Under the pieces are notes generated by a model. It saw only the letters and a list, made by a program, of their open reading frames with translations, was not told the origin of the DNA and ran no database searches. Made by a program: the position numbers and the translations under genes. A stretch of DNA of 64,000 nt from Macrocystis pyrifera (taxonomy: Eukaryota; Sar; Phaeophyceae; Laminariales; Laminariaceae): the NCBI GenBank assembly GCA_031763025.1, contig JASSKH010000004.1, positions 2,294,001 through 2,358,000 on the forward strand, in the 5' to 3' direction. The number at the start of each line of letters is the position of its first letter. Position 1 is the stretch's first letter. This document shows positions 1 through 59,169 of the stretch, piece after piece.

Positions 1-879
1 GGGGGGATCTATAGCCTCATTTCTTTTGTTTCGAATAGCCGCATCTTCGACCACCTTTTTCTGGCCGTTCGGGATGAACTTTGTCATCACCCTCCGACCA
101 TCTTGTGGTCTGCATATACGACTATTCAGGGTGGGCTAATGTGATATGAGTAGAGTATTCATGGGCTATAGATATAGATAATACGTTGCAGTCTTGTAGT
201 TCCACGAATACGAGAATAATCCAAAGAATGGATTAACCCGGCGGATATTCCGTTAGTCGAGAGTATCGTTATTTTAGGAATGTTCCGTGATGCAGATAGG
301 ACTACGAAGTGAGAAGTTCTTATATTAGCAGAAGAACGATCGGTAGCCATTAGGAAAGTTCTGTTGGAGTACATCAGATAAGAGGAATTTAGGAGAGTTT
401 GTGGCGTGGGGTGGGACGAGTATATCTGGGCGTCGAGTCCCGCCCCCCTACCTCTCACTTCTCTACCAGAGCACCTCCTCAGCTCTCGCCATCAATAAGA
501 AGATCTAAATCAGAAGAAGCGAAGCACTGCTTTCCAGCTGCCAGAACAACCTGCGTCCCTTGCCACTACCCTTACCACTACCCTAGACCGGTCTCCGCAT
601 CACAGGAACCCATTCGGGAAAACGTAGAAATCCACCGCATGTTCCCGTAGGACAATTTACAGATACATAAATCACACCAATCAACCAGCCAATGAGAATG
701 CATCAGATATTTGCGCAACTACGGACAACTAACTGCTATGTGTTACACTGCAACGTATACTTACTGGTATAAATGTTTAGAATGGGGTGTTCTTTATGCA
801 TTCCGCCAAGCGCATCACACCAAATACTTTTCCTGCATTTGGTTCAAGAGTGAATCTGTCGATGTTTCGCGCCCTTGAG

Positions 880-1100
880 GCGTGCATTGACCTGGGTACT
901 AACCGTACCCGGAACTCCTGTGAGGTGTACGGCATCCATACTCGCACCCGGAACTCTGTGTGAGATATGTGTACGACGTTCAAACCGTACCCGGAACGTA
1001 TGTAAGTTATGCATGCCCGCGCGTGCGACAATACCCGGAACTTCTGTGAGTTCCGTGGCTAACAAACTTGCATACCCGTACCCGGAATCCACAAACCCTA
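880..1100 (+). repeat. Spaced short-motif array (consensus CGTACCCGGAAC)
   Basis: Five copies of a core CGTACCCGGAAC, often followed by TTCTGTGAG, begin near 904, 943, 986, 1030 and 1077. Spacing grows from 39 to 47 bp and the sequence between cores is only loosely similar. This is best read as a degenerate minisatellite. The flanks (1-880 and 1105-2040) show no coding signal that I can support. Confidence 0.7.
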
Positions 1101-2039
1101 CATAACGTAATCTTGGCGAAATCATTTGTAAAACTATTCGAGAAAACTTGGTGCGACACTTCCTTCAAAGCGTGCTCTTTTTTATGGGGTGTTTAGGTTT
1201 CATATTGGTCTGTAGAACATGGATGTTTTGGTGTTCAACGGACTCGCTACCAACCTACTTTGTGTATTTAGGTAACAACGAGCAAACTAGCTATACTGCT
1301 GCTTAAGTGGCGGTATTTTTCCTGAAGGTATCACAGTATAGCGTCAACAGAAGTCGAGCTCTAGACCTGATGGTCGAGTTCGTGCCGCTCGAGTCGTGAT
1401 GACCTTGGGGTGGCCACCATTGCACGGCGAATTTGTCACTCCCTTGATCATACCTAGCGTCAACGGAACGTTGCCCCGTCGCTGACCTAGCGTGAGCGAC
1501 ATGAATTTTCTTCATCGGAATATTATGAAGTTCTACTGTGCACAGTATTGACAAAGTATTGCTTCGAAGCGCGAGCTTTTTGTTTCTTGATTTTCCAAGA
1601 AAATAAAGGCCTCTTCATAACGGCTCGCATGCGAGGGTAGGGTGCCTTGTTTGGAGTTTCTCTGTTGTATGTGTAAATCAACATTTTTTTTGGGCCACAT
1701 TTGACCACTGCGCTCAACGCACACGGCACCAATCCCGGTGGAATTTGCGCACGCACACAAGCAATTGAAAGTTTCTCGTGCTGGTGCGGTGATATGTCGT
1801 TCACAGTAGGTCGAGCTAGGTGTGGCAACGTCTGTAGGCACGTGGCTGGGCCATGGTTGAAAACAACGGAACCAACAGTAGTGGAAAAAACATACGTAAC
1901 GTTTGTTTTTTTATTTCTACCTGACGAAAACCAACTCTAAGAATACTCCTAGCCAGGCTGTGCCCATCTGTCCGCAGCAACGTTCGAGCCACGTCGCCAA
2001 GAAATGATGCAGGTGGTGCTGTCAGGCCGACCCTCGTAC

Positions 2040-2800
2040 TGATGAAAGGACGGAGAAGCTGCAAAATATCTGCTGTAGATGTTGTACAGCAGTAGTAGTG
2101 GTGGCACCTGCTACGAAAAGCTCTGTTGGACACATGTGTATGTCAGGTTGTAGATTTTATGTCTTCAAATTATGCGTGTGGAACCAGGAAACACGCAACA
2201 ACATCGAGTACGTGTACCAAAAGGGTTCAAGGGTTAAACCGACGCAAGCTGAGCGTGCAGCGACGATGACCCTGGCCTCGTGTGTCCTACCGCTACTGCT
2301 GCTGCTGTTTTGCTGCTGGAGGAGCTCTGCTGTAGAGTCGTACATCATCGATTCGGTACTAGTGGTGGCACCTGCTACGAAAAGCACTCTCTGTTGAACA
2401 AAACATGTCAGGTGCACATATTTCGTCTTCACACTTTGCCCAAGTTCGAGTTCGGAACCAGGCAGCACACGGCAGAATCAAGTACGTATGTGTACAAAGG
2501 GTTCGAGGGTTAGACTGACAAGCCGAGCGTACAGCGACGCTGACCCTGGCCTCGTGTCTACTCCTACCTCTGCTACTGTCTCTGCTGTAGATGTCGTACA
2601 TCACTATTACGGGGGTCCATAGTTAACGGGACCAAACTTTGTTTGTGAAAATTGGAGAATATATAGATTTTTATTTAAACCATAGGTCCTATTAACTATG
2701 GACCCCCGTAATAGTCGTAGTGGCACCTCCTGCTACGGGAAGCTCTTTCTGTTGGACTAAACATGTCAGGTGCAGATTTTTCGTCTTCAAGCGAACTTCC
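2040..2800 (+). repeat. Three-unit tandem repeat, about 240-264 bp each
   Basis: The phrase GTGGCACCTGCTACGAAAAGC and its flanks recur at 2101, 2365 and 2720. Each unit also carries a GACCCTGGCCTCGTGT stretch, a CTG-rich part, ACATGTCAGGTGCA and a TTCGTCTTCA stretch. The third unit is interrupted by the MITE at 2603-2715; without it the spacing is about 241 bp. Open frames here switch between units and no protein is proposed. Confidence 0.85.
2603..2715. mobile_element. MITE with about 30-bp terminal inverted repeats
   Basis: The left end ACTATTACGGGGGTCC and the right end GGACCCCCGTAATAGT are inverted copies, and the match extends inward to near GGTCC/GGACC on each side. The AT-rich middle of about 45 bp has no coding room. 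It interrupts a tandem-repeat unit that is continuous in the two neighbouring units, which proves insertion. If the target duplication is TA, the element is 607-711 within 2600-2720, suggesting a Tc1/mariner-type mobiliser; this is inference. Confidence 0.85.
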
Positions 2801-3731
2801 GACCTCATTCTGGAGAGCATCATCCTGATTTTGCCCGAACTATATCCGCTTTAGCTCGAACGCCGGGAAACCAAAGCCCGAGAACGTCGAGGCTGTAGTG
2901 TTAAGGTTCACCTGCTGGCTGTTTACGGAGGGGTCTGTACGGCTGTGTTGCCGTGCGAGCTGTGGGTTAGATGCTGTGTCCGGCGGTCCTGATATGATAT
3001 ATTGACGCGACTGCGCTGACGAGTAGGACGTTCTGATTTGTTGCTGTTTGTGTTTTTGACTTGCTTTCCGATGTATTTCCAGCCATCGACGTTTTGGTAT
3101 CGGCATTGGGTAAGGATTGTAAAATCATTCATTTTCTCGGAACCTTAAAACGAACAGGAAGATGCTTGGGCCAGGGACCAATCAACGCCAGCAATAGTAT
3201 TATATTACTTCGATTTTCGAATTGGATTATTTTAGTCTGTTTGGACACGTTGCGCCCTGAAAGAGCCCAAACGTCACGGATACAAACAACCGCGTACGTA
3301 CGTAGATGTTTGTTCGTATTGGTTCAGCACAATACAGAAAATCCGTATTCGCCCAGCATGATGTATCGCAAATAGATGTGACCACTGCAGGTATTATTGA
3401 GGTCGCGCCTGATTACCACCAATTACTATTGCTGTAGACTACACTACAGCACAGTACAGCACGGTAGAGTACAGCGCCACGGAATATTTTTTTGCATGTA
3501 TGCAAATCAGCACCCCAAAGCATAATATACGAACATGGCGCGGGCGGCCTACTTCATACTACAGTCGGCTACAGTAGCCGATATCCACTACCCGATGATC
3601 CACACGCATTAGTAGGCGGTGCAATACACAAAGCATAATTGTCCATTATATACAAATCTCGACAGTGCACCGACCACAAACAACGATCTAGTACGTAAGT
3701 GCAATATATGCGCTTCCTTCTGCTCTGAAAG

Positions 3732-6700
3732 GTGAAGCTCGCAATCGTTCTGGGTTGGTCTTCCGGCATCAGCGCGCCCGATTTTTAGCTGGAGCAGGAC
3801 TTTGCTATGGACACCGTCAACACTTTCACCGACAGAAACTTGTTCGACAACGGGGGAAACCACATCCTACGTGCAGTACTCAACCTCTTGAGTCTCGTCC
3901 GATATGTTCGACAACGCCCAAAGCTTTAACGACTTTTCCGATGCTGACGTCCAACCTAGGCAAGGCACGACCACGTCCATCGGCATCAATGAAGGCACCC
4001 GGCTACTAGGCTTAAACCCTGCAAGCGCATATTTCATGATCGTGATCACCGACGACCAAAACAGCAGCCTCGTCGACACCACAGCAGCAGCAGTTTCCGC
4101 CAGGGCTGAGGGCACAATCGTGCTCGCTGTTGGAGTAGGTGAGGGTAAGGCAGCTTATGGATAGACATAGCTATCAATATGTTTTGTGCGCGGAGTTGTC
4201 GCGATCCCTTTCTTCCACTAGCGCGTAGAAAGTCACGATTTCGTTAAAAAGTTCGCTTAGTAACTGGGCAAGTCAGGATATCAACTAGAAAAGTTCATAT
4301 CTAACAACCATAAAAAATCTGGAAAGCATAAAAAGTGGAACAGTTAAGTCGTTAATGTCCCTCCTCAAACATAGTGAGCGCACACAGAACCGACATAGAA
4401 CTGTTTTTCTTTACTTCTAACTTACCAACTATCTTTGATGCGTCGATTAAATCTCTTTCGTCTCCCTTTGCAAGGTACTGCTGAACGTCTTGCGATCGGA
4501 GGCGACGCCGCCAACGTGTTCAAGGTCACCTATTTCGACCTACTCGACTGTATGCCGACTAAATGAAGGCCACTGGCGGTATTGTCGAAAAAGCATCTAC
4601 TTACGATTGCACGTGTTGAACGGAAGATACCGTACTACACGCGAACAATATAAGGGAGAACTAAAGTACATACTACAGTACAGTGTTGCCACTTCCTACT
4701 TCTGTGGAGAGTTCAAGTCCCTTCCCTCGCACGTGTGGAGTCATTGATATTTAAGTTGGTATCTGGTACATTGATGTACGTATTGAACAATACTGGTACA
4801 TTGATGTACTTATTGAACAATACCTGATGATGGGCTTCCTGAATTATTTGCCTGTACACACGCGCCTGCTTGACCGCATGGGCTAAATTGTTTGGCTATA
4901 CTGCGCGTGTGCAGCTTCTGCGTTTTATTTTGGCCATGCTTTGGCGAGCTTTCGCGCACGATGGTTGTGGAGTTGTATGCCGCAACGTTACCGTACGCAC
5001 TTGCGGCACTTGGTGCGGGATTTAGCTACAATGGTATAGGTTAGCTTTGATAATGAAGGTACTGGCCCTTACTTCAAAATATCGCCGAGAAGAAAACAGT
5101 TTTCCAACCCTTGACGCGGATACGGTGGAGTTATCTAATGCGAACGCCTCGACTTCCTGATGGTTTGACGCATTGATGAAGGTAGGTGTTGAATGTCAAG
5201 CCATACATCTGCTCGATAGATTTATATTGTAGAATCGTACAATCGTTCCGGCAAAAGATGACCAGGCGTGCTAAAGTGCTACTCGACTCTGGTTTTCTCA
5301 TTTGTTTTGCGAGCCTTCCCACTGTCTGGCCTGATCATGGAGCAGCCCTCCGCAGTAGAACAAAACCATATCTGGATCTTGATAAACTTCTCCTGTGTAT
5401 TGTGATGTGCTCACCGCACTTATCGACTATGTGTAGGCTGTTATTGTATTGTGTTGGCAGGCGGTAGCTCGGGCTTGCGGTGGCGATAAAAGTGGTTCAA
5501 CCGCCTGGCTACTGCTCTAAAGGTACAACCTTAGGATTGGCAGTTATAATATCGGAGGTGTAGTCGAGAATGGCATACATTGAAACGACCGAAGGTGACA
5601 TTAGAGTGGGAGACACGAGATTACTAGACGAGCACGCTCACATTGCCGCTGCGTCTAGATACATCGCACGGGATGGCCATATTAAGCCGCACATAGCTAC
5701 GGCGATGATCTACCATGCGCACCCTATTCATAACGCAGCTTGCTTGTCTGAACGACGCGCGATACTGAGCAGCAGCTACAGCCGTCCACCGACCTGGAAA
5801 AATGCATCGCATTATTCGTACATGTAGACAATGCATCGTGCAGAGTCGAATGTTGTTGTACTGCAGTCAATGCTGTACAAGTATCACTTCAATGGGTTTT
5901 TTTTTTGCCCGTTTCTACGTCGCTCTCGACCGTGGTCCATCGGCTGAAGGTTGGACTCTACGCTGTCTGGTTCGTCGCATGTTTGGATTCGTTACTCATT
6001 GTGGCGTCGCTACCGTAGAAACGTCGCCAGCTCTAAGCTACTGATTTCGACCCCCTCAAAAAAGGTGATTGCCCCACTGCACTTCGCGTCACTATGTAAT
6101 CCCGCCAGTCGTGCTTAGTAAACGCTTCCAGCTACCGTATTCATAGCAATGAACACATCGTTTATCCGCTCGAAATATTTTTTATCGAGACACCCAGCGG
6201 GGTTGCGATGCGGCGTGGGAGTCATCGCCCACCGCATGGCTACAGAAAAATACCCCTCATTCTGGATATCTACAACTACCCGTACGGTTATGCTTCTCCA
6301 GCTCCATGTCATCAGAAGTTGCATACGTATTTGCTTAGTGAAGAAATTTCAAGGTGAGCCGTAAACCATGACGTCGACATCCTGACGAGGTACTGTACAC
6401 TCAAGTATACTTGCATATTGATCGAATCCAATCCCTCTCTCAAAATTCCGGAAATTCCTCTCCTTTCGTTGCCTGCACAACTCCCATCCTACACGATTTC
6501 CAGCGGCTTTGGCAAACATCCTCTCGTGAAGTCGAGGCGTCGTCATACCGTGCCCATCAACGGGCGCCATGGTGACCATCGAGTTCAGCGTGCCGATCGA
6601 CTCTACCTCATCGGGATCCATCTCCGGAATCACCGTCACCGTTTCCGCAGTTGACCTGGAGTCCACCCCTAGGGACTTCGATTTCATACTAGACGTGTGC

Positions 6701-7789
6701 GGCGAGGTTCCCTGTGGCAGCGTCGTCGTATCCGCGCACTACAAAGACGATTGGGGCAACACTCCTGACCTGTCCTTTCTGACCGGCTGGGTAGTCGGCA
6801 ACGATTTCTGTCCCGCTCCCCCTCCGGCGCTCACCCCGGCTCCCACTCCAGCGTCCACACCGGTCTCTACTCCCAGCCCGACCAAGAAGGAGAGAAACCA
6901 CCCCAAACGTGGCAAGCGCCGCAGGAAAGGAAAGGCTAAACCCTCCACGTACCTTGGCTGCTACGTAGACGACTCGCGACATACACCTGTTAATGGTCCA
7001 ATGACCAGTTCGCGCCACATGACGACGCAGGTGAGAAAAAACCTTGGCCCTGGATCATCCATTCGGACGATCGTGACAGCATGTAGCCAGTAGTGCGTCG
7101 CGATGCTCGTGAGCGCTCAACGAACACAATCCAACTAGGTATGGATGTGCAAATGCAAATGAAGACAACAAAAAGTACAATATTAAAGCGATTTAGTTGC
7201 ACCTCTTGCCCACTCATCTTTCCCTATGATGTGCGCCGACAGCTGCAGTTCCTTGGGCTGGGAGTACTTCGCTGCGGCATACGGTCCAGGTGCATCGAGT
7301 GTAGATGTAAATTTCTGCCTCCCAGTCAGTCGTAAATATCGAATACACGCGTGGCTTCAAAATATTAGAAAAGGCCGTCGGCAGCTGGTTGAAAATACGA
7401 TAAGCTGCATTTGCCAACACGCAATGAAAAATTGTGAAGGGTGAGGTGAGTCCTCCTTGGAATGCGACATGCGATAAAGGGGCCAGAGCTGCCTTAGCTT
7501 TACCGTATACCATTTTCCGCGATTCATTGGAAAGAGGAACACTTGTCGCATCAGAACCACTGACGTCACATCAGAGCGACCGACTCTGTTCTAACGTGGT
7601 CTGCCCATTCCGTTTCTGCGTGACCCAAACAACTGCTGTTGCTGCGATGGCGTCGCTAAAAAAATGGCCTTACTTCCAGAATGCCACTGCGGTAGCTCCA
7701 ATGCTACTAAGAAGGGAGTCATGTGCGACTACGAGTGTGCTGGAGACCGTTCCAGAGCATGCGGGGGCGTCGGCTGCATGCGAATCTAA
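3732..7789 (+). pseudogene. Decayed VWA-WSC paralogue
   Basis: This copy has the same exon order as the intact gene on the other strand: VWA 3732-4138, VWA end 4475-4549, beta-rich module plus linker plus WSC start 6504-7030, WSC core about 7229-7289, WSC end 7680-7789 with stop TAA. Splice phases match at every junction. Damage: the DGSGS metal motif reads GWSSG; there are in-frame stops early in the VWA exon (after PDF), in the middle of that exon and at the start of the third exon (after NILS); a frameshift lies near 3862-3875; and the acceptor before 7229 has lost its AG (CCTATG where the intact gene has ACGCAG). No signal-peptide exon was found upstream. The last exon still reads ECHCGSSNATKKG to CGGVG. 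I infer a non-functional duplicate. Confidence 0.8.
4764..4823 (+). repeat. 30-bp tandem duplication in a pseudogene intron
   Basis: TGGTACATTGATGTACGTAT and the next 10 bases are repeated immediately with a single difference (G to T). It lies in the intron 4550-6503 of the decayed paralogue, which otherwise shows nothing I can support as coding. Confidence 0.9.
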
Positions 7790-9200
7790 AAATTCCGACA
7801 AACACAGGGGTTACTGAGAATTTTGTGCGTTTCGCCAGTCAACACTCCACACAGCAGTAGCTGTATCGCCCGTGAGTTTTGTTTTGTGCTGAGAAGTGGA
7901 CGATAGTCGCCAACAGGCAATCGGAAACGAGCACCTTCGGCTGTAGGAAAGTGCATTTCGTTGTTGGAACGCGTTGTGGGCAGAATCCCTTAGGCTGCGA
8001 TTGGTCGTCAAAAGCCAAAAAACGCGTCAAGGGGCAGAAAGTCTACTTTAGTGGTTAGATGGCATGGACAATGTGTTCCTGAGTCGCACCATTCGGACGA
8101 AATATGCAACAACGCGTAAAGTGGAGAATTCATTAGCGTCTTCCCATTTTTAATAGTATCGAGAGGACGAGGTAGATACCTACTGCCTCGAGCTTCAGGC
8201 GAGGTTCGCAGTCGTATTTTTTCTCCAGTATATGCTCCGTATCATGTACCTAGTCGTTACATTGAACACGGTCTTATACCTTGTACCTAGTAGAAGGGAT
8301 AGCACCTGTGACCACGGCGTTCCCGGAATATCGCTGAGGGTACGAATGAGTCTGAAACGTCGTGTCTTGTTACAAGGAGAAATATAGGAAAAAACAGCGC
8401 GTGTTTGGGCCGCTTTGCAAATCGCGCACAGATATATTTCCCCAGTCATGGTGCATACCTTTTCTGGTGGGAAGTTCTGGAGGTCCAGTGGCTACATGCA
8501 GTATATCCGTGTCCGACATTGCTCACACTGCGAGTGCTAGCAGTCCTACAGCCCGTACTTCTTTCTGTCTTTCAAGGATATCGGGGTCCTATACTGCGAA
8601 TGCTACCCGTACTGGCAGCATTGTGTCACACTGTTCTGCGGATACGGCCAGTACAGCCAGCGGTTTGGCCGTTCCTGTATTCGGGGAGTGAAAAGTGTGA
8701 ATAGAGAATCTGCCAATCGTGTTCGTTTTGTTTGTTTGCGCTCTATGACAAAACGCACTACGGAAATATGTTCATGAACACACGATTTCTCGAAACTGAG
8801 CGAAACGTTGTGAGAATCACGCGTTTGTGGGCAGTCGCAAGACGATAAGCAGCACTAGATGAATGCTACTTGCAGTGTATGTTGCTTCCCTATTCACGAG
8901 TCCCTCACTGTCGAAGCACCCAAGCACTAACGACCAGAAAAAAGGAAAGGGGCAACCAAGTGCACAACACTCGAACATGAACACATATACACTACACTCA
9001 CTTGTGAGATTCTAGAGTGGTATTTCAATGATGTTGGGTACCAGGTAATTCCTTCTCTTTAGCAGCCCCGTTTGACAGAGATTTTAGGCGAGAATGTGCC
9101 ACCCCGGCAGTAGCACGCGTCACGAACGGCCAAACACCAAACCTAAGAGCATTATACAACGATCGTAACAACACCCGCCAGGACCAGTGCAGTATATTAG
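7790..9200. other. Intergenic, no gene seen
   Basis: This stretch lies between the pseudogene stop and the LINE. A 109-codon frame at 8362-8691 is Ser/Thr-rich and overlaps another open frame; neither has a motif. Nothing else is supported. Confidence 0.5.
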
Positions 9201-10283
9201 GAGGTCAATACTGGAGGTAATAGTCTATACATAGTATAGTTTGGAGTTGATACTGAGAGTGCTGGGCCATACCGAGTATTTCGAAAGTAAAAGCTGCAAA
9301 TACTGGACGACTATCGTGTTCGAGGTGTAAGACCGCGAGTACGATAAACGATACGCAAAGGAAGTTCGGAGAAGTAGCAGTAGATGTACATAAGTATTAG
9401 AGGAAAGGAGGAGTACTGTAGTACTAGTGGCAGATTTTCGATCAAGAATTGGGGAGGCAAGCAAACCGAACGAGAATATTGGACAAGATGGGGAAGTAAC
9501 AAATAATCAGAACGGGGAAGATATGTTGAAGTTCCTCAAGCACAACGAGATGAAGACGTTGAACGACAGTATGAAAAAGGCACAGCTGGAATGGACTAGA
9601 CAATGCATACAAAAGGGATAGTAGTAGAAAATGTGGTAAGGAAATGGAACTACATGTATTCGCTGCGGACGTAGGAACTACAGACTACTCTCTAATAAGG
9701 ACAGACAGTCAACAGACGATAGTTATCTCACTTACACGAGGAAGGAAATTGCACCGATCGAGAATAGATAAACTAGAAGTATACGAAGAGATGGCCTGAA
9801 ATCATAGCAATTTTCCGAGCTGTTGGAAACAATAGGTACAAGAAGGAACGATATAGAACGGGATTATGCAAGAGCTAGGATCATAGAAGATGGGAGCAGG
9901 TCAAGACCACAGCAACTAACGTAATACAGATGTAGTTGATAATTCGCAACATAGCAGTGAAATGGTGGGATGAGAAAGTGAAAAAGGCTACAAGAGTAAG
10001 GAACAAGGCACACACAAAGTATACGTGGAGTAATACTAATAATACGACAGGGCGGGAAGAATACGCTACAGCTTGAAAGAGCGTAAAAGAGATAGTAGAG
10101 AAGAAAAAGAAAGGGATACGGAAATACGTAGTAAATAAAACGAATGAGGACTTTGAGGGCGGGATGAAGCAGATATAGGTAGGGATAAAAGGGATACTGG
10201 GCAAACAAGCCGGAGAGACAGACACGGGAATGGCTTCTCTTTTGAAGGGCAAAAGTGAAGTACTAGTAAAGCAATACAGTAAG

Positions 10284-10302
10284 CTATTACGGGGGTCCAT
10301 AG
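10284..10302. mobile_element. MITE end remnant inside the LINE
   Basis: Nineteen bases here (CTATTACGGGGGTCCATAG) are identical to positions 2604-2622 of the MITE. No right end follows; the LINE frame resumes within about 10 bp. It is either a stub left by internal deletion of an inserted MITE or filler DNA copied during repair. Confidence 0.6.
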
Positions 10303-10508
10303 AGGAATACCCCAACCAACGGAAAGTTCGACGCAGAATACGAGAAGGAAATCAACGCGTGAGCAGAGGCGAACGTGGACACATCCGAAAGGGAAAAGAG
10401 TGGTTCGGAAGGGTTACAGAGAGAGTTCACAAGGGAAGAAGAAAATAAGGGTGTAGATAAACGTATGTATAGAACGGCAGCATAAATGTATAAGTACGGT
10501 GGGGAAGA

Positions 10509-10724
10509 ATGCTTACCATGATGGTTATGTTGTATAACTGGATACGGAAGAACGAGCACGCGCCTAGGAGGTGGAGAGGAGGGGTAGTAGTAAACTTATT
10601 CATGAAAGGAGATAAGTCTGACCCTGGGAACCATAGAGGGATAACGCTATTAAGCAGGCGAAACATTTTTCAAGATTTTTGTACGATAGAATGGGACCGA
10701 TGCTGGAGAAGGAGGACAAAATAA
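10509..10724 (+). pseudogene. LINE reverse-transcriptase fingers fragment
   Basis: A 71-codon open piece carries the best-preserved RT motifs of the element: TMMVMLYNWIRKNEHAP, then WRGGVVVNLFMKGDKSDPG and HRGITLL. These are RT blocks 1-2 of the LINE type. The frame breaks right after it. Confidence 0.85.
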
Positions 10725-11313
10725 GCAAAAGGCAGCAGGGTTTAGGCCAAACCGTAGCTGCGTAGACCATGTGTACACCTTAGGTAAGATTGTGCAAGGT
10801 AGGAAAGACGCCGGACTAAAAACGTACTTTTTTTTCTAGATATACAGAAAGTCTAAGACACAGTAAGGAGAAATGGATTGTGGAAATCACCGTGGGAAAT
10901 AGGAATCAGAGGAATAATATGGAGAATGATGAGAAAATGACGGAAGGCGCGAAAAGTGCTGTGGTGATGGACGGAGAAATATCGAAGTATGTTGATATTT
11001 TTACTAGGAGATGCAAAGGATTGTACGTTGCCGCTTAATCTATTCAAGATATATCTATATATATTGACGAGCTGATAGGGCAGTCGAGGCAACAAGGCCG
11101 GGACGCACGGTAGGGGAAGATACAGTGTCGAGATTGATGGCTGCGGATGACTTCGTGACAATATCAGGACTACCCGAATTGTTGAAGAAACGAATTGAGC
11201 AGTACACTACGAATGGAGGGTGACGGCGAACGCCAAGAAATGCGCAGTGTTGGTTGTAACGGAGATACGGTAGACCCGGCAAATTTCAGTTGGAAGCGGT
11301 GGGAAGATGAATT

Positions 11314-11691
11314 GTGATAGTAGATCAGTATACATACCTTGGAATAGAGATATCAAAAGACTGCTCTTGGTATACAAGTATATCACAAGTAAAAGCAAAA
11401 GGTAAACCACAAGTAGGCAAGACGAAAACGATGTTAACAGACTCGTACATTGACAATAGGATTAAGAGATGTATCCGGATGAACGTGATAGTGCTTGTAC
11501 CAATACTAGAATATGCAGGACAAGTATGGGAAGGGAACGCGAAACTCGTAAATGAGTTGGAAACAGTACCAATGACAGCAGCTAAAAGAATCCTAAGATG
11601 CTCAAGTCCGGCTGGTAATGCAGCATTAAGAGCAGGGCTTGGAATGCACCCACTCATAACAAATAGAGACGCAAGAACGTTGAAGAGGTAA
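11314..11691 (+). pseudogene. LINE thumb and C-terminal fragment
   Basis: This is the longest open piece of the LINE (125 codons). It reads YTYLGIEISKDCSW, then RIKRCIRMNVIV, LEYAGQVWEGNAKLV and TAAKRILRCSS, the region that follows the RT palm in jockey-like LINEs. The reverse strand is also open here but has no recognisable content. Confidence 0.85.
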
Positions 11692-12529
11692 TATACGTAA
11701 AAAACATGCCAAAACGGAGGATGCCAGCCATCGTTGATAGAGCTGTACGGGAGTAAGCAACAAAGGGGCGAGTTGGAATAAGGTGGAAATGCGTTGTTGA
11801 TAAAGTATGGAACGATGGAGGGGGCAACCAAGAAGATATGATGTCCGCCAGGAAGTGTGGAGGTACAAGGCAGAAGTAGAAGAAAGGATATATAGAAAGG
11901 AAATGTTAGAGCAAAGAAACAAAGTGGAATCGGAAAAACACTTAGAGGTACACGGGCTTATTGAGGGAAGGAATAAGAATGAAAACGTATTTACACGGCG
12001 CAATGGACTTAGTGAAAACTTTGAAACTGCGCTTTCGTGTAGGTGACCCGCACTTTCCAGAAATGAAGAAAGAGGTATACCAGTAGCCGCGAGGAGGAGA
12101 AAGTAGATGCACAGATGTGCCCGTGTTGCAAACGAAAAGAGAGTAAAACTCACATGGTAGAAGAATGTGAAATATACAAGGAGTAACGTGATGTGTTAGA
12201 AAAGGAGATGAGGGAAATAGCCGACTGCGGAAACATGGAGGAGTTGGATACAGTAGACCGCTACGAGACAACGATCGCTATCCTAGGAGATAGATGATGT
12301 TGCACCCAACTGTTGTAAGTGCCTCTATTGGGAGTAGAAACGGTGCTCCGTTTCGAAAGGTTGGCGAGGTCAATGGTCAGTTGACTAAGGCAAGCAACAA
12401 TCTCCACCACTTACAATAAATCTCTTCAAGTTATCGAACTCTCAGCAAACAATATCGAACTCGAATATTAAAAAGCTCAAGCCATCTCTTGGACAACTTG
12501 AAATATATAAATCTTCAAGATTGAACGTG

Positions 12530-26402: not shown

Positions 26403-26956
26403 CTATATGGTGCTTTTGTAGACGCTGATGCTGCCGACGCCTCCACAAGCAGTGGCACTGTCTCCAGCGCATTCGTAGTTGCACACGCCCTTCTTCTTTT
26501 TCTTCTCAGGCTCGGAACTACCACAGTGGCATTCTGAAGATGGGGTCGAGTTAAACCGGAGACATTCCAGACGCAGTGATTCAAGAGAGTGCGGAATAGC
26601 GAAGACAGACAGACGTGCAATTGATGAAACTGCCATAGTCTCAACGAACCTAGTAGACTGCGCTCGTGGCTCTGATGCCGCAAGCTCCCTACCAACGACT
26701 TGCGTAAACAATGATTTTCGTGCTCACTCGTGACTGAAGCTAGCCGTCTACCGAAATAGGACTGTTTAAACAATACGTATGAACTCCTGTGTACTAAGGT
26801 CGTCTATCGTTTAACTGAATGTTATATGAGTACATATTTATCATAATATGGGATATGCGGCTCACTGAAAAGGAACGCTTGGCTTCTGGACCCACCTGAA
26901 CCCTTTGACGTGGCGAAATACTCCCAACCCGAGCAGTTGCAGATGTCAGCGCACGC
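26403..26956 (-). CDS. Last two exons of the VWA-WSC gene: rest of the WSC domain
   Basis: Exon 26956-26896 (61 nt) reads ACADIC then GWEYFA, the WSC core with the second and third cysteines. Exon 26533-26403 reads ECHCGSS, a Lys run (EKKKKKG), CNYECAGD and TACGGVG, giving the remaining five cysteines, then ISVYKSTI and a TAG stop. The phase-1 split inside the WSC domain is the same in the plus-strand paralogue. The Lys run is longer than in that copy. Confidence 0.75.
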
Positions 26957-29900
26957 CTGCGTAGCAGAGGCGGGGGCAAGAGATACAACGAAAAACACAG
27001 TATTGATGCACCTGTCATTCGTTGCAATACCTTTGGAACATCAGTGTCGTATTATAATAGTGGGTCGGCGCTCACGTACTGTAGCCAAAAGATACCAAGC
27101 CGTGGAGGTTTCAGTGTAATCGCATGTGTGAGTGGAGCAGTGGCCGGGGATCCTGTGTGATGTCCCCTAGCCACCTGGCTCGTGGTCCGATGAGGATCAC
27201 TCCGTGATAATACAAGCTCTAAGAACAAGACTTACTGAGTGCGAGGCCAGCGAGACTGGTGGAGTCCCTCGCTGGAAGCCCTCTTGCTGATATCATCTGG
27301 CAGAGGCCATAATATCTAGATATGGCCTCTGCCAGATGATATCAGCAAGAGGGCTTCCAGCGAGGGACTCCACCAGTCTCGCTGGCCTCGCTGGAAGCCC
27401 TCTTGCTGATATCATCTGGCAGAGGCCATAGTACGCAGCGACAGAGCACCGCACGTTGTGCTGTAACACTGACTGATAGTCCACAGACACGTTGATTTAT
27501 CACCTGCGCGGTCATCTCGTTCCAGTTTGTCACCGGGCCGTTGAGAGGTGTTTTTTTATCCTTGGGTACGTAGCAGCCAAGGTACTTGGATTTGTCTGCC
27601 TTTCCTTCCTCGAGGTTCTCGACTGTCGGCACGGTCGGCGTGGGTTTTGTCGGCTTCGGAGTAGGCGCTGGGGTCGGTGCTGGTGTGGGTTTCTTGGTCG
27701 GCTTTGGGGTAGGCGCCGGGGTGGGCGCTGGGGTGGGTTTCTTGGTCGGCTTTGGAGTAGGCGCCGCGGTAGGCGCTGGAGTGGGCTTCTTTGTCGGCTT
27801 GGGAGTAGGTGCCGGGGTGGGGGCGGGGGTAGGAGCCGGGGTAGGAGCGGCACAGAAGTCGTTGCCGACGACCGTACCGGTTAGGAGAGACAGGTCCGGG
27901 GTGTTTCCCTGGTCGTCAGTGTATCCAGCGGATACGATGATGCTGCCGCCGAGGCCGAGATTGCACACGTCGAGCATAACCTCGAAGTCCGTCGGGGTCG
28001 ACTCGAGGTCAGCCGCGGAGAAGGTGACTGTGTTTTTGCTGATGGATCCGGACGGGGTAGAGCCAACCGGGACCATAAAGTCGATCGTGACCATGGCTCC
28101 TGTTGATTCGCACGGTAGGACGATGCCCTCATTGGCCGAGAGAATTTTCTTCAAGGCCGCTGATAATCGAGAAATACGGGAGTTGAACAGGGGCAAAGGG
28201 AGAGCAACGGATTCGGTCGTGTGTCCATGGTATTGTCTTCAACCGTGATGCATTTTTCACTTCAATAACTTGTCGCTACGCAGAGTTGATTTCCAAAGGT
28301 TCCATCTGCATGTCAATGAATGGACTAGCCGACGTTGTTATTCAACCATACACTCTAGAACAAACACGTGAAGTGCGCAGTACCGGAAACGAATTAGAAA
28401 ATTGCGTCCATCCTATTTGGGACTTCTTTGGGTCTTAACTCACGTGCGACCTTCCCGCAGCGTCATAGGCTGACTACGCACGTACTGCTGCGCCAACTAG
28501 ATGAGAATTGGACTTGAGCGTGTACCACGCACAATCCAACAGCAGCAACCGTTCGTCAAGCCATCACTGCCGTGACGAGCAGTATTTTTGCGTCACGAAA
28601 CGAAGCTATACGCGTCAAGAGTTCGATGGCTTGTATTTTATAGCGCAGTGTTGACACTTAGCGTTACATTCGCACAAAGTCATAATTGAAGTTCTCACCG
28701 AGTACAGCAGAAACCAGCCGCAAGCTGGGGTCTTCGAAAGCCAGAACAAAAACGTGGCTGAAGCTAGCGGCAACTGCAGCAAGTAAGCCATGTATCTTAT
28801 GGACATCACAACCCAAAGGCAGCGATAGAAAGATCGTACAAGTGCCTTTCTAAAAAACTCCAACGGCCGCGCACGCGAACTAAAGTCACCCTTGAGCCAA
28901 AAGTATAAAACACAACTATGTGTGTACCAGTGTGGTAATGGAACATGTATATCATGAGGCTTTTAACCAGCATCATGTACCAGTTTCGTACGCGATTACC
29001 AATGACCCAACACGTACTGGTGAAGATACGTAACACATGCACAGCGGTAGGGAGTGGCTTTATTAACAGTCATTTTGTCGTATTATGTATCTTCTCTATG
29101 AAGTGCAATTGAAAGCAAAAACTTTGCCTACTTCCACTGCCGATGCTGGTACTGCAGTGGCCTCGTTTTTTCCGTGGCTTACCGTCGAGCAGGTCGAATT
29201 CGTCGACTTCGAAGACGTTGGCAGGGTCGCCTCCGATCGCCAGAAGTTCAATTGGGTTAGTCCCTTTCCCTGCGGTGAGTTATGGAAGAAGTAAATTCCA
29301 GGCGTCCAAGGTGTTAGCTAATCGTGCTGTGCGGCGATGAACACGACCTCTAAATTCTGTGTACGGACTGCAAAAAAGGAAACATGTTATGACGTGTGCT
29401 TCGTACGGCAGGGGCAGGTCCTAAAACGTTATGTATTTTTTTTGTCTTGAGGACCTCTCTACCAGTGTCCCACCCGAAAAACGCAAAATGTAGACCAACA
29501 CGAGCAATTCTATGGCGCAGATAATTCATATTTGTTGCATGTTTTTGCTAAGGATATGAGTTTTCATTTTCTTTCCCGCAAAGGCGCAATTTCAGGCAAA
29601 ATCAAACGGAGGCAACACGGGGGTTCGTCCGGTCGCAGTGGTCGGAGTTTGAGCTACATATGTGCAGTGTGTCGCGCTTGACCTGCGCTCAAAGTGGTTT
29701 TGTTCGCGAAGAGTGGATGACACAAATAGGATTCCGAAGCTATGGGGTAGTCCCTTACTTTTTAATAGCCGATTTGATCGGAAACTCGTTCGACGGAAAT
29801 TCTGCCTCTACTGTAGCACGGGTCCACTGCTCATTTACTCCCCTTCCAGATGCCTATTCTTGTTCCATGCTTAGTGTGTTTGAAAGATATTTGGACCCGC

Positions 29901-32900
29901 ACTATTGCTGAATGCATGGTTAAATTACGTCATCAAGTAGTATGCTTCGACGGGAGATAATGATCCCGGCAATTCTTCACACCAAACTGATCGACAGCTA
30001 CGGCCGTATGATGCTGACCCACCTACTCCCACAGCAAACACGGTAATGCCCTTCTTTCTGGCTTCCCCTGCTGCAATTGCTGTGGCGAACAAGCTGCTGC
30101 TTTTGCCGTCGGTGATCACGATCATGTACGATGCACTCGCGGGGTTGACGCCTAAGAGTCGGGTGCCTTCCTCAATTCCGATGGACGTGGTCGTGCCTCC
30201 CTTGGCTTGGGTGTCGGCCTCGACAAATTTGTTAAAGTCTTTGGCGGAGTTGAACGTAGAAGAGGAGGCCAAAATTTTCGCGTACTGCACGTACGATGCC
30301 ATCCCCCCATTGTCGAACAGGTTTCGGTCGGCAAATGCGGCGACGGTGTCTATAGCAAATTTCTTCTCCAGCTCAAAGTCAGAAGCTTCGATGCTCCCTG
30401 ACCCGTCGAGAACGAGGGCGAGGTTCACCTTCAAGGGCGGAAGCGAAATAATAATTTTCAATCAGATAGTTGGTGTCGGCAAGTTTGGTTCTGTACGTAA
30501 CTCAGCTGTGTGGGTTATGTTATACATGCGTTACATGGTCTGCATAAACAGCAGTAACACTAGTTGTATTGCACTACAAAAGTTGTAATTTTAGTAGCGC
30601 TGCTGCTGTAGTCTTAGCCACCATAGAAGTACTGTAGTACTTAATGTGGTGGTGGGAGTAGGATAAGGAACCCCGTAATGGTGGTCGAAGTAGTAGTGGT
30701 AGTGTAGCAGAAAGCAATGGCGGTAGTGTTGCTGCTGAAGTAGTAGTACTGTTGTGGCACTATTTCAGGTAGTACTACAGTGGTACCGGGTACAGCACTA
30801 CCAGTTGCTCTGAAATGTAGAGCAGTAGTACTAGTATAAACAGTGGTTGCAGTAGTAGCACATGCAGTAGTATATAGTAGACTAGTGTTAGGAATACGAT
30901 AGATACTGCCCTGGCTGTAGTACTTGCTCCAGTAGTAGTGGAGTAGTATCGATCGTACTGTATGAATCAAAGTAGTGGTGGAATGGTTGCGTGGTTGCCG
31001 CAGTTGCAATAATACATACTACTTGGTAGTGCCAGTAGGTACAAGGGGAACTTGCCAAAAGTACAGGTCGGTTCATTTTTTTCGTTACCCCCGCCAAAGT
31101 CGCCGCCGTTTATTGTAGTCGGACCCCCAGGTCAATAACGCCTCGTTTATAAAACTGTAGACCGAAATGGTCCGACCCTCAGTGTCTCGCTTGGTATATT
31201 CTCCCACTTCCCAACTCTCCTCAGCCCGTAATCGTCGATCGAGATTTTTTTGTTCGCCTCTTTCATTATGGCTGTATATTCTTCCTTTTCCCGTCTATTT
31301 TTTTTCGCTATTTCTAAAATCACACACAGTTCAGGTCGTCTCACACCATATCAAATATCAGGAATCCCACACCCCTTCTGCGAATTACTTAGTCAAGAGT
31401 CGCAAAACAGCCGAAATATGGAGCTTCGAAACTCAAGCCAGAATTGAAATTAATCCAAACATGAGGGAGATAGCCGCTCCAATACTAAATTCGATATTGA
31501 AGTCCGATTTGGTTTGGTAAAAACAAACATTTGTGTTTTTCAGAACTCGAACTTGGATGCAAGAAACCAACTGGTCTAAACGGAGCGAGATACAAGCAAG
31601 CAGTAGTTGCCCGACCATACGTACTTCAACGTAAACGGTATCCTGTCGCACGACGTTCCACGTATTTCAAGACAAAGGCACAAATATTGGTTTGCTCAGC
31701 TCAGCTCCGGTTAGCAGCGCAGCGCTATTTATAGTTCAGCGGCGCAGCGCAGCTTTTTTCAGCACAGCAGCACAGCAGCGCGACCCTAGCTTTCGTCTAC
31801 ACCAGACATGTATATGGTATCATGTATACGATGTGCATAGCACCACACAGAAAACAATGCAGTGACAGATAAAAAAAATCCCACACTAATTCAGCTCATC
31901 TCATGCAACCCAGTGCGGCGCAGTGCAGGGCGATGCGGTGTCGTTGTGCCGTGCTGTTAATATTATTTCTTGCATTTCGAGTAAGAATATATCTACACAT
32001 CATAAGAGGTACGTGCATGTGGCATCGGAGTTTTTTTCCCGGAGCGTGTGGGCTCATACCAATTTCGATTCGTCTGTTAGCACCTACCTGGTAAGTGTTT
32101 GAAATTTCTACCTATTGCAGTTTAAGACTCGTTGTGAACGAACGTAGCGAGTGAGTCGCTACGCGAAGCGCCTTGTTAGCTTTACTTAGAACACCCTAGT
32201 GAGAGAATCTAAGCAAAAATACAGAAACCACAAGGGCATCCACAACAAGTGAACAAAGTTTCAACTAAAACAGCGCATGAAATTGCACTTTTGTAAGAAA
32301 GCTATGTACCTGGGAAAGTTCACATCGTTGCCTCGATTCAACCTAGTAACATTGTTGTCGTGGATGTCGATTTCAAATTCTAAATATCATGTTAACTTGG
32401 ATTTTCTCAGTCTATTCTTCTTACGTTTACGACAAACGATTTGCAGTCATGCCTCGGCGTACCTAGAGCCGACGTGTCTCGAACGAGCATGCCCGAAATA
32501 ACGTTTATTGTCCTAAGAAAACGCCAAGCTATGGTTGACCTTTTAGAAAGCCCGTGGTTCGTCGGGACACAGTTCCGCCTTCGGCGTATGCCCTATGTCT
32601 TTAACGAACCCAAATCGCGATTCATTTCCTCGTCTTCCGTGGTTCATGTGGAGATGAATATGAACCCAAACACTAATTATGCATGGATATGTTGCAAACG
32701 TCGTTCTTTCGTGCTGGCCAAGCCTAAGGCTACGCCCACTCACTCACCGTATGGGCTGCTACCGTCGTCTGTCCTTCTAGAGTGAACGCCAAGGTGGCAT
32801 CACCACACGGACACGACGCAAGATCCGTGGTGGTGAGCTGAACACATGATGTTTGACCCATCACATTGGTCACGGTGAGTACGCTCAGCATACCCACCAG

Positions 32901-32921
32901 TTTAATCTTGGACATCGCCAT
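26403..32921 (-). CDS. Secreted VWA-WSC domain protein (six-exon gene, apparently intact)
   Basis: Exons read on the minus strand are 32921-32748, 30428-30023, 29269-29183, 28159-27504, 26956-26896 and 26533-26403. All introns are GT-AG with phases 0,1,1,0,1. The joined exons total 1515 nt (about 504 residues plus TAG) with no stop seen. In order the protein has a signal peptide, a short Cys-rich start (SCPCGD), a VWA domain with the DGSGS metal-binding motif, a Cys-flanked beta-rich module, a long Pro-Thr-Lys linker, and a WSC domain starting YLGCY and ending near TACGGVG with eight cysteines. VWA domains bind proteins through a metal ion and WSC domains bind carbohydrate, so an extracellular wall or matrix role is inferred. 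Exon 1 joins the VWA exon in frame, but a further exon in the 2.3-kb first intron cannot be excluded. The start codon at 32921 is chosen because it gives the signal peptide; a second Met follows two codons later. Confidence 0.8.
27241..27430. repeat. Perfect 71-bp foldback (inverted repeat) with a third partial arm
   Basis: 27241-27311 is the exact reverse complement of 27321-27391, with a 9-nt spacer (ATATCTAGA). From about 27387 to 27430 the second half of the left arm is repeated a third time in its original direction, so the structure is arm, inverted arm, partial arm. It sits in intron 4 of the VWA-WSC gene, 74 bp downstream of the donor. Perfect identity implies a recent origin, or an artefact of library or assembly. 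Confidence 0.9.
27504..28159 (-). CDS. Exon for the beta-rich module, Pro-Thr linker and WSC start
   Basis: This 656-nt exon follows the acceptor ATTATCAG. It encodes about 100 residues rich in beta-strand pattern, bounded by cysteines (VLPCES, DVCN, NDFC), that I cannot assign to a named family. About 75 residues of Pro-Thr-Ala with KPTKKP spacers follow, then KYLGCYV, the first Cys of the WSC domain. The donor is GTGATA at 27503, in phase 0. The GC-rich linker also leaves long open frames on the opposite strand, which are shadows. Confidence 0.8.
27625..27850 (-). repeat. In-frame tandem repeat coding the Pro-Thr-Lys linker
   Basis: The linker is built from near-identical 48-bp units, each coding about 16 residues of the pattern [14 protein letters not shown] plus an AA or PA pair. 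At least three units are recognisable, with shorter APTP repeats before them. The unit is a multiple of three, so gain or loss of units changes linker length without breaking the frame. The plus-strand paralogue has a much shorter, Lys/Arg-rich linker. Confidence 0.85.
30023..30428 (-). CDS. VWA-domain exon of the VWA-WSC gene
   Basis: The exon opens after the acceptor TTGAAG with [13 protein letters not shown], the first strand and metal-binding DxSxS loop of a VWA domain. The other metal-site residues are present: the Thr in GGTTTSIGI and the Asp in [10 protein letters not shown]. It ends FAVGVG, the last core strand before the split, at a GTGGGT donor in phase 1. The remaining helix and strand of the fold are on the next exon (29269-29183), which reads through [14 protein letters not shown]. 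This matches the position of the split in the plus-strand paralogue exactly. Confidence 0.85.
30590..31040 (+). repeat. AGT/TAC triplet-rich DNA in intron 1 of the VWA-WSC gene
   Basis: Dense GTAGTA and its complement recur over 450 bp, upstream of the VWA exon. Similar but shorter blocks occur at 3430-3560, 35610-35710 and 38400-38600. They look like diverged trinucleotide arrays without coding content. Confidence 0.6.
32748..32921 (-). CDS. Exon 1 of the VWA-WSC gene: signal peptide
   Basis: This exon has 58 codons. It starts with a short Lys-bearing n-region, a hydrophobic core ([15 protein letters not shown]) and a likely cleavage site before QTSC. The mature start has SCPCGD, then a segment ending AAHT. 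A strong GTGAGT donor follows at 32747, in phase 0. The linkage to the VWA exon rests on frame, orientation and order, not on a transcript. Confidence 0.6.
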
Positions 32922-55863: not shown

Positions 55864-56225
55864 AGTGAGTACTTGTCATTACTAGCAGACAGGATGGCGA
55901 GGTGAGCACCCCCGCGGAATGACCTCAGTAAAGGTGACCACTGATGAGCGTAGCACCTTGCAAGCGAAGGTCAGCACTTGCCATTATGCTATCACTAAGA
56001 GGGGAGGTGAAGGCGAGCCCCTCCCTCAGGATTGGATGCTGTGGAGATTCCAAGAGTTTTGTAGGTTTGTGTGCTGTTGAGTGTCCTGGGGTCAGATTTT
56101 GTAGCGAGGTGAGCGCCCCCATGTGCTGAGATCTGTGAAGGTAAGCACTGAGGGCATAGCATCTTGACAGTGAAGGTGAGCACTTGTCATTCTACGGGCA
56201 GATAATGGTGAGATCTCCCCTGAGA
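55864..56225 (+). repeat. Tandem repeat, about 210-bp units, GGTGAGC-rich
   Basis: GCGAGGTGAGC recurs at 55894 and 56104, and GTGAGTACTTGTCATT (or GTGAGCACTTGTCATT) at 55865 and 56176. The units also share GACCTC or GAGATC, AAGGT and CACTG stretches. Confidence 0.65.
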
Positions 56226-56246
56226 CGTGAGGTTGTACTGCTGTGT

Positions 56247-56690
56247 GTACCAACAACGCTGTTTCGGTGCATTAAACAGGCGGTCGATGGTGGGAGAATA
56301 CGTGCCAGTGTAGGTCTCGTGGCCAGCGCCAACGCGTCGGCCTGTAGCCCGTCCCTGATTAATATCACACACGTTGCGAGACTCAATGTAATGCTGCATG
56401 CTCCAACGACGCTGAGCCGGTGTACCAAAAGGCGGTTGATGGTATTGGACTGTGCGACGGCGCAGCCCTCGTTTCCGATGCCAACACGTCTGCCCTTGGC
56501 CCATCCCTCACTAACGGTACACGTGCACGGCTTGGGGCCGGTGCCGATGCGTCGATTCTTGGCCTTGCCTATCACAAACGATATTTAACATACGCGTCGT
56601 GACGTACAACAACGATGCCGTGCAGGTGAACTGTAAGACGGTCGATAGTGGCGGAGTATGCGCCGGCTCACGTCTCGTTACCGGCGCACC
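56247..56690 (+). repeat. Three-unit tandem repeat, possibly once coding
   Basis: Units starting near 56247, 56399 and 56604 share (CAACRACGMTG), a (GCGGTCGATGGTGG)-type stretch and (CTCGTK). Read in the best frame the units suggest a peptide of the form (YNNDA, then KAVDGGG or KTVDSGG, then LV), but the frame differs between units. The second unit carries an extra sub-repeat. It may be the relic of a repeat-containing secreted protein; family unknown. Confidence 0.5.
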
Positions 56691-57934
56691 GGCTGGCAGT
56701 CGAGAATGAGCGGAAAGCATGGCTGTGCATACGTTATCCCCCTCCCGCAAGCGATACATTCGTACCAAAGACACAAGCGCGTGTCCCCCAAGGGAACCTC
56801 ACGGCCGGTGCAGGATATATACGGTACGGAGCACCTGATAACGGATGCTGTTGATAGGAAGATGTCGGTGAATAACAACCGCGGCTATAAAACAACGCCG
56901 GCGCCTACTATTGTTATGCCGGCGTACAGCAGCACAGGGACAACTCAGTCCCACCCTCGTCCAAGCCGGTGCATGGACAGTGATCACTGTCGCCTTTATC
57001 TAACATCGTTCCCGTCGCGTTGCCCCGTTCCGCTTCGGCGCCGTCTAATCGCGTCCGTTGTTTCCGTTCCGTTCCACGCCTGCGTCGTCTGTTGTTGTCG
57101 TCACTGTTACGTTTCGCGTCCGGGCTGTCTCGCCGCGTCTGTATTTCGCAGAGGCCCGGCGAAAACGACGGCGGAGGGGTGATTGGGGACGATGACGGGT
57201 AGAGACGGCGACGGGTAGACTGTCGCGTCGCGGGCCGACTTTGCAATCTTCACGTAGACGGTGGCAAACGAAATTGCCCAGCTTCAGGCGGCCCTCCAGA
57301 GATCGAGTAATGGTGTCATCGAAGCCTCCCACTGTCTCGCCCTTGGTGAGACGGCGGCGCCAGCAGGTTTCGAACGCATCTAGGCAGCTCTGCTGCCGGG
57401 GTCTCTCTGCCGGACCACTCCCCCAGCACCGTCCTGCTCGGATCGTTGGCCGACAGCCGTTTGGTAGCCCCGTCGACGGGGTCTTCCTGCCGACTCCCAG
57501 CATTGCTGGTTAACTCGTCGATGGGGCCACGGGCGGGGCAGGCTCGCCATAGGTACGGGGCGGGCGTTCTGCCACGACGATACTCCGGGCCGCGGCAGAG
57601 CCGCCGGCGCCCCTCTTGGACCGGCAGGTTCGCTCGCCGTGGTCCCCGGAGGGTGGGCTACGGTAGTGTTATGGGTGGTACCGGAAACGCTCGCAGTCGA
57701 CCAGGGGGGCGGGACTCGACTACAAGAGTTCTGTGGGCGGCGCCGGTGGCTCCGGTGCTCTCTCCGGACAGGAGGGCGGGCACGCGGCCGGCTCGGCTAC
57801 GTCCCGGGCGAGGTAGCAGCCAACGGCGCGCCGTCAGTTGCACTCGAACACGCGGCCCGCGACGAGGTGTGTGGGCCTGAGGCCGGCTCGAACACATACG
57901 GTAGCGGCAGCACCGCCGAGAGGTCCACAAGACT

Positions 57935-58735
57935 ATGACCACCCGCGCAGTGGCATCGTCGGCCATCTCCACGACTCGGCTATCGCAGATCATCTGCGGC
58001 GGTGGCCAGGCGTCGATGCAGAGGGCTGCCATGCAGGGGTACGTGGGAGCCGCAACTAACAATTTCATCCAGCGTCCATGGCATGTTGGATGGTTGGACG
58101 ATCTCGAATTCCTGGCCTTCACGCCGCGCGACAAAACAGGCATCAACCGCCCACAGGCAGAACCCCCGAGCTTTTGGGGTACACGATCGTACGCGATCGT
58201 TACAATCGCGTCCCACGAGCTCCGACAAGATGGCGTGGACCCTCACGTGGCGCGCGCTTTCTTGGACGCGCTCCGACGAGCTTTCAGCGCGGAGGATACG
58301 ATTATCAAAGGCCACGTTATGGAGCACGGTACGGTCAGCGATCGCTCGGTGAACTAGGCCAGGCTGGCGCCTCTGGTTACAAAAGACCTGGAGACCTATA
58401 CGCTTGACCTGCCCTGTGTCTCCGACTCCCGCAGCCACGTTTGGGCCTACCCCCCGCCGGCGGAGGAGTCCTTACCCGTCATTCCAGGGCCGCACTGGCC
58501 CCGCCTTTCCGGCCATGTCGCCCTCGGCGATTTTGCCAACACCGAAGTCCAGCAACCACGCCTTACCTCCAGCCTGGCGGTTGGGGCCGGCGATGGCGAA
58601 TGCCAGCAGGGTGGAAAGACCGGCAGGTGTCACTTCCGCAACACCCACGTGTTAACCCACGATGGTCCCGCTCGCAAGACGGGCAGCGGCAATAAGCGTA
58701 AGACGTCTACCGGCGGGGGGGTCGGCCGATAGCGG
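57935..58735 (+). mobile_element. GC-rich coding-like block ahead of the recombinase fossil
   Basis: The plus strand is mostly open and protein-like in one frame, with WHVGWLDDLEFLAFTPRD, then DGVDPHVARAFLDALRRAF and a later LPVIPGPHWPRLSGHVAL. I do not recognise the family. Its position, orientation and GC bias match the tyrosine-recombinase region just downstream, so it may be the first gene of the same element. It is broken, with at least two breaks. The long reverse-strand frames here look like shadows. Confidence 0.35.
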
Positions 58736-59169
58736 CGCTGCATCCGGAGAACCCCCACGACGAGGGCCAAGGCCAACGACAGACGGGGGCCTGGCGTGGC
58801 AGTGCATGTGATGGGAACAATGGCGGTGGCAGCGGCGGCAATGGCACCGGCAGCGGCAGCGGCAGCGCGGCGTCGGGTGAGGGAGGGCTTCGCGAACTCG
58901 GCGGAGGCCAAGGCAGACGAATAAAGTCAAGTGCCTCGCCCCTCAGTGGCGGCGACGCCGATCGTAGGCCGTACGGAAAACAGCAGCGCGAGTTATATAG
59001 CTTGTACGTCCGGGGTCTGCATACGTTAGGAGCCCAGGTCGTGGGGTCAGCGGGCGTCGCGCTATGATCAGGAGTGCTGGCAGCCACCTCATTCGCCAGT
59101 CGGTTTGGCCGTCGTCTCACTCAGCTTGAACGTCCGGTTTCCGGTCTTGGACCGGTTTTTGGGGGTTAG

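Follow-up and report, generated by a model that had tools for sequence, protein, structure and literature searches.

A tandem VWA-WSC gene array in giant kelp and its amino-acid variation around the MIDAS

In the giant kelp Macrocystis pyrifera, a gene that joins a VWA domain to a WSC domain belongs to a tandem array of about forty copies. Amino-acid changes in the recent copies gather beside the MIDAS, as they often do in recognition proteins. The gene lies in the window, by which we mean the whole stretch of 64,000 nucleotides that was analysed. On balance, we think that it encodes a secreted protein of the kelp matrix with a split beta domain, and that the array is a repertoire of recognition proteins or adhesins. 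The array and the clustering of changes on the side of the MIDAS are more interesting than the architecture of the single gene. Multicellularity evolved independently in the brown algae. Integrin-like and receptor-kinase molecules of these organisms are known while their roles are not, according to a passage of PMC8307928. Some forty tandem VWA-WSC genes with amino-acid change focused on the ligand face would make a concrete candidate, open to experiment, for a role in recognition or adhesion. The split beta module would count as a domain not described before.

The six-exon gene and its product

The window gene extends on the minus strand from an ATG at 32921 to the last base of a TAG at 26403, which is the span of the original prediction. 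Joining six exons (Table 1), the splice borders of which (AG/GT) were picked by eye, gives a product of 504 aa that is open throughout, with none of the stops in the spliced product that the original prediction had named as a threat to itself. From the N-terminus, this product consists of a signal-like start, a three-Cys segment of ~35 residues, the VWA domain, a Cys-bounded module, a Pro/Thr/Lys linker and the WSC domain, directly followed in the gene by the stop codon. The six-exon gene is confirmed as real, and the recurrence of its exons in paralogues is far beyond chance. At the 30 loci of the module search that were inspected (L009-L038), the first WSC piece is present in all 30, at one of them in two frames, and exons 5 and 6 are found in 20 and 19, respectively, within the 1.5 kb of flank considered. 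Moreover, five of the six copies of sub-array R (four distinct proteins) yield open six-exon products of 448-478 aa with a rough script in which some splice sites were crudely chosen, the sixth copy being without the search pattern for exon 4.

Table 1. Coordinates of the window gene, its parts and the second window copy (positions are those of the window).
Feature	Position	Strand	Content
Exon 1	32748..32921	-	Signal-like N-terminus (by eye) and short three-Cys segment SCVQL..SCPC..FTLEG
Exon 1 end		-	Phase 0, donor GTGAGT; 42 homologous matches, all in the C218 array
Exon 2	30023..30428	-	Bulk of the VWA domain, carrying MIDAS residues
Exon 3	29183..29269	-	Remainder of VWA; AG/GT borders, conserved in many paralogues
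Exon 4	27504..28159	-	Putative final VWA helix, module, linker, start of WSC
Cys-bounded module	about 28133-27852	-	Within exon 4; from the module alignment
Pro/Thr/Lys linker	about 27850-27630	-	Within exon 4; repeats of 24 and 48 nt
Exon 5	26896..26956	-	Middle of WSC
Exon 6	26403..26533	-	Last part of WSC, with ECHCG..CNYECAG..CGG, and the stop codon
Second copy	about 3729..7792	+	Decayed: stop-bearing VWA spread over two frames, a stop immediately ahead of the module, pieces of WSC

In Pfam, the VWA model (PF00092) matches residues 60-222 of the joined protein with an E value of 5.9e-22 (79.2 bits against a curated cut-off of 23.8), and the WSC model (PF01822) matches residues 415-493 over its full length (1-82 of 82) with an E value of 4.5e-14 (52.9 bits against 27.8). 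These are the two families found above the cut-offs, and no TSR was seen down to an E value of 1. With these hits on one open product, the proposed combination of VWA, module, Pro-Thr linker and WSC in a single protein is borne out. The MIDAS is complete (DxSxS, T, D) at D66, S68, S70, T137 and D165 of the joined protein, in agreement with the earlier statement that all visible metal-site residues of the VWA domain are present. The protein stops 11 residues past the WSC match, and a simple hydropathy scan, the maximum of which (a 19-residue mean of 1.53) falls inside the module, detected no C-terminal transmembrane-like segment, so that anchoring would rest on the WSC domain and the linker. 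In sub-array R the linkers finish in a strongly basic stretch, which would suit the binding of alginate or sulphated fucan. Judged from its sequence, the predicted role of the window protein as a wall-bound adhesin is plausible.

Several known systems resemble the window gene in part. Apicomplexan adhesins of the MIC2/TRAP type likewise present a VWA domain on a stalk, but they have TSR domains and a transmembrane anchor, neither of which was detected in the window protein by Pfam or the hydropathy scan; the window protein has a WSC domain instead. The mussel byssus proximal thread matrix protein 1 (PTMP1) is also an extracellular matrix VWA protein, although the match to it involves two VWA stretches, unlike in the window gene, and it is not known to contain a WSC domain. 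Yeast wall sensors of the Wsc1 type share with the window gene a WSC domain carried by a stalk of low complexity that is directed towards the wall. These sensors possess a transmembrane segment, of which the hydropathy scan showed none in the window protein, and a cytoplasmic tail, and they are not known to carry a VWA domain. The C-lectins of bangiophyte red algae, proposed as microbe sensors in a passage of PMC8307928, combine a VWA with a sugar-binding domain, but both their lectin domain and their lineage differ from those of the kelp VWA-WSC proteins.

The array on C218 and change around the MIDAS

The whole genome (537,376,219 bases in 223 contigs) was searched exon by exon. The N-terminal segment gave 42 matches and the VWA domain 47, all of them on contig C218, where the VWA matches correspond to 37 uninterrupted exons (one of which matched only from query residue 17 onward), four broken loci in two pieces and two remnants. 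The module gave 54 matches, 49 on C218, four on C199 and one on C194. On C218 the matches cover positions 1,758,691 to 3,280,480, about 1.5 Mb. The Pfam VWA model has at least 42 matches in the genome, 41 on C218 and one on C207, counts that are lower bounds since VWA domains split by an intron may escape. Between 2.56 and 3.28 Mb, copies of two types, A and B, are intermingled, and several of their VWA exons are identical. A canonical MIDAS is found in 18 of the 30 VWA exons examined; among the 12 without a full MIDAS, the third-loop Asp is changed to Asn in eight, all of type A, the last Ser is changed to Gly in three, and one is broken at two positions. The Asn-bearing type A copies, at 2.63-3.24 Mb of C218, may have an altered metal site or be decoys.

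Amino-acid-changing (N) and synonymous (S) differences were counted in 30 VWA and 29 module exons as variable nucleotides, a count that is not tree-based and ignores gene conversion. Residues at most four positions from the five MIDAS residues were considered near-MIDAS, a distance rule chosen after the variability had been seen. In the four clades pooled there are 60 N and 12 S near the MIDAS, compared with 73 N and 54 S in the rest of the VWA domain (Fisher p 1.7e-4). At this width, pN/pS is 1.93 near the MIDAS and 0.43 in the remainder, and when the mask was shifted one of 135 shifts was as extreme, namely the unshifted mask itself. Widths of 6, 8, 10 and 12 gave pooled p values of 0.0065, 0.0064, 0.0034 and 0.026, with 4, 2, 3 and 10 of the 135 shifts as extreme, respectively. 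Against neutrality, the binomial test at width 4 gave p 0.036 for clade B, 0.15 for R, 0.42 for F and 0.27 for A, and clade B was above 0.05 at widths 6-12.

The VWA domain differs significantly from the module in two clades. Clade R (six VWA and six module copies) has 24 N and 9 S in the VWA versus 2 N and 12 S in the module (Fisher p 3e-4). For clades F and A the VWA and module sets come only partly from the same copies; the counts are 76/48 versus 30/38 N/S in F (six VWA and nine module copies, p 0.024) and 15/2 versus 5/4 in A (nine and ten copies), which is not significant (p 0.14). Clade B (five copies) has 25 N and 8 S in the VWA and is without a module set. Relative to 1.5 kb of flank on each side, in which pieces of exons 1 and 3 were left unmasked, near-MIDAS amino-acid change exceeds the variation of the whole flank in two of the three clades so tested, with 0.268 vs 0.049 in B (p 1e-7) and 0.246 vs 0.110 in R (p 0.004). 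The near-MIDAS value of clade A (0.071) is lower than that of its whole flank (0.148) and higher only than that of the downstream flank (p 0.039). Taken over the whole VWA exon, change is above the flank in clade B (p 0.02) and not in clade R (0.078 vs 0.110). The flanks of clade F align poorly, and their variability (0.68 per column) is greater than that of its near-MIDAS sites (27 of 56). Strong conservation of the module is shown for clade R (amino-acid change of 0.010 vs 0.110 in the flank, p 7e-8); it is weaker in F (pN/pS 0.28) and absent from the results for A, where module change equals that of the downstream flank (0.024 vs 0.022, p 0.8), and for B. In the aligned proteins, variable patches directly follow DGSGSI and TDG, and another surrounds the MIDAS Thr. 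In the VWA model (mean pLDDT 67.7, poor at residues 80-98) these patches fall in or border loops, outside the strands and mostly outside the helices.

The Cys-bounded module as part of a split domain

The module matched no Pfam family and no solved structure among those searched, in keeping with its original description as unassigned, and when modelled alone it reaches a middling confidence (pLDDT 76.9). Its treatment as a unit of its own may need revision, because paired absence of Cys residues suggests that it belongs to a larger domain into which the VWA is inserted. In array genes readable on both sides, the N-terminal segment contains Cys a, b and c and the module Cys C1, C2 and C3, the last Cys being slightly shifted in the copy at 2528 kb. 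Cys c and C2 are both missing from the C194 gene and from two C199 genes, which keep a and b with C1 and C3; the gene at 1759/1768 kb lacks b and C3 and keeps a and c with C1 and C2. This comparison covers the four of six divergent genes in which both sides are readable (the other two, on C199, were left out), with N-terminal segment and module matched by position and strand. The paired absence leads us to predict the bonds a-C1, b-C3 and c-C2 across the VWA domain, and the module would then probably be half of one domain, a reading drawn from just two events. In the integrin beta hybrid/beta-I pair, a VWA domain is inserted into a beta-sandwich; if the paired-Cys reading is right, the window protein would have the same layout.

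The C194 and C199 genes show a phase gap: the end of exon 1 is in phase 0 and the start of the module exon in phase 1, so that an unseen exon must sit between the two, where no VWA was located. Repeated Cys-rich units, FDCSPCEDLTDAQLEALAAYDNGGKQ..CDPTCLDGVSDPTHCNC and DFGLGQICRGCGECSTC, are present downstream of the C194 gene and of a C199 gene (L070, about 215-3760, and L069, about 2080-3790, minus strand).

In the segment originally delimited as the module (28159-27870), the first residues, AALKKILSA, resemble the last helix of the VWA domain and would belong there. The module had also been placed in both window copies. It is present in the window gene. The second copy is decayed: its VWA is spread over two frames, its DxSxS is broken, and it is interrupted by stops, one of them immediately ahead of the module.

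Recognition, adhesion and alternative readings

In the mechanism that we propose, the protein would be exported to the extracellular matrix of the giant kelp, where its VWA domain would take hold of a ligand via a metal ion, while the WSC domain and the Lys-rich Pro/Thr stalk would fasten it to anionic wall polysaccharide. The N-terminal Cys segment and the module would form a single disulfide-linked beta domain with the VWA as an insert, and recent array copies would diversify around the MIDAS. The family would most likely represent a repertoire of recognition proteins or adhesins that are anchored in the matrix. Together, a diversified ligand face, apparent secretion, a putative polysaccharide-binding end and a tandem array make recognition or adhesion at the matrix the best explanation. 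A wider reading, to which we lean less than to its contrary, is that giant kelp holds a large and fast-diversifying repertoire of matrix-anchored VWA-WSC recognition proteins that serve in immunity, in the choice of epibionts, or in the recognition of mates or self. Such a system would be undescribed, and no brown algal protein with both VWA and WSC was found in the open-access literature searched.

It is rather unlikely, in our opinion, that the genes form instead a structural family of the matrix or of the holdfast adhesive, in which dosage keeps the copies, the VWA domain holds a matrix protein and variation on the MIDAS face tracks matrix partners and not non-self. PTMP1 is the best sequence relative of solved structure (6.6e-13), WSC proteins are listed among brown algal wall proteins in a passage of PMC8307928, and the near-identical recent copies of types A and B are consistent with dosage amplification. 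However, near-MIDAS amino-acid change above flank variation, as found in clades B and R, exceeds what dosage needs. This clustering could also reflect relaxed constraint, with many copies drifting or decaying and loss of metal-site function being spread by gene conversion. We regard this as improbable, since synonymous change is not elevated near the MIDAS (12 S vs 60 N), the remainder of the VWA is constrained (pN/pS 0.43) and the module is strongly conserved in R and constrained in F (pN/pS 0.28), despite the absence of a full MIDAS from 12 of 30 exons, the four broken VWA loci and two remnants, the decay of one of the two window copies and a module change in clade A that equals that of the downstream flank. 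There is, in addition, a very slight chance that the near-identical copies are partly an artefact of assembly. Long tandem arrays are difficult to assemble, and type A has three unique sequences among nine VWA exons; against this, sub-arrays R and F and the window gene clearly differ from each other, and the source was a haploid gametophyte assembled with long reads and Hi-C, as stated in part of PMC10498591, so that allelic duplicates are removed.

Other features of the window concern its non-coding sequence and composition. Intron 4 contains, at 27241-27391, a perfectly complementary inverted repeat of 71 nt with arms 9 nt apart, and an additional 45-nt copy of an arm at 27386-27430; the inverted repeat is like a small insert resembling a mobile element. 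Positions 10001-12000 display a strong purine skew (GC skew 0.335, AT skew 0.310), and positions 56001-60000 have a G+C content of 0.60-0.61 compared with 0.43-0.55 in the remaining 2-kb blocks.
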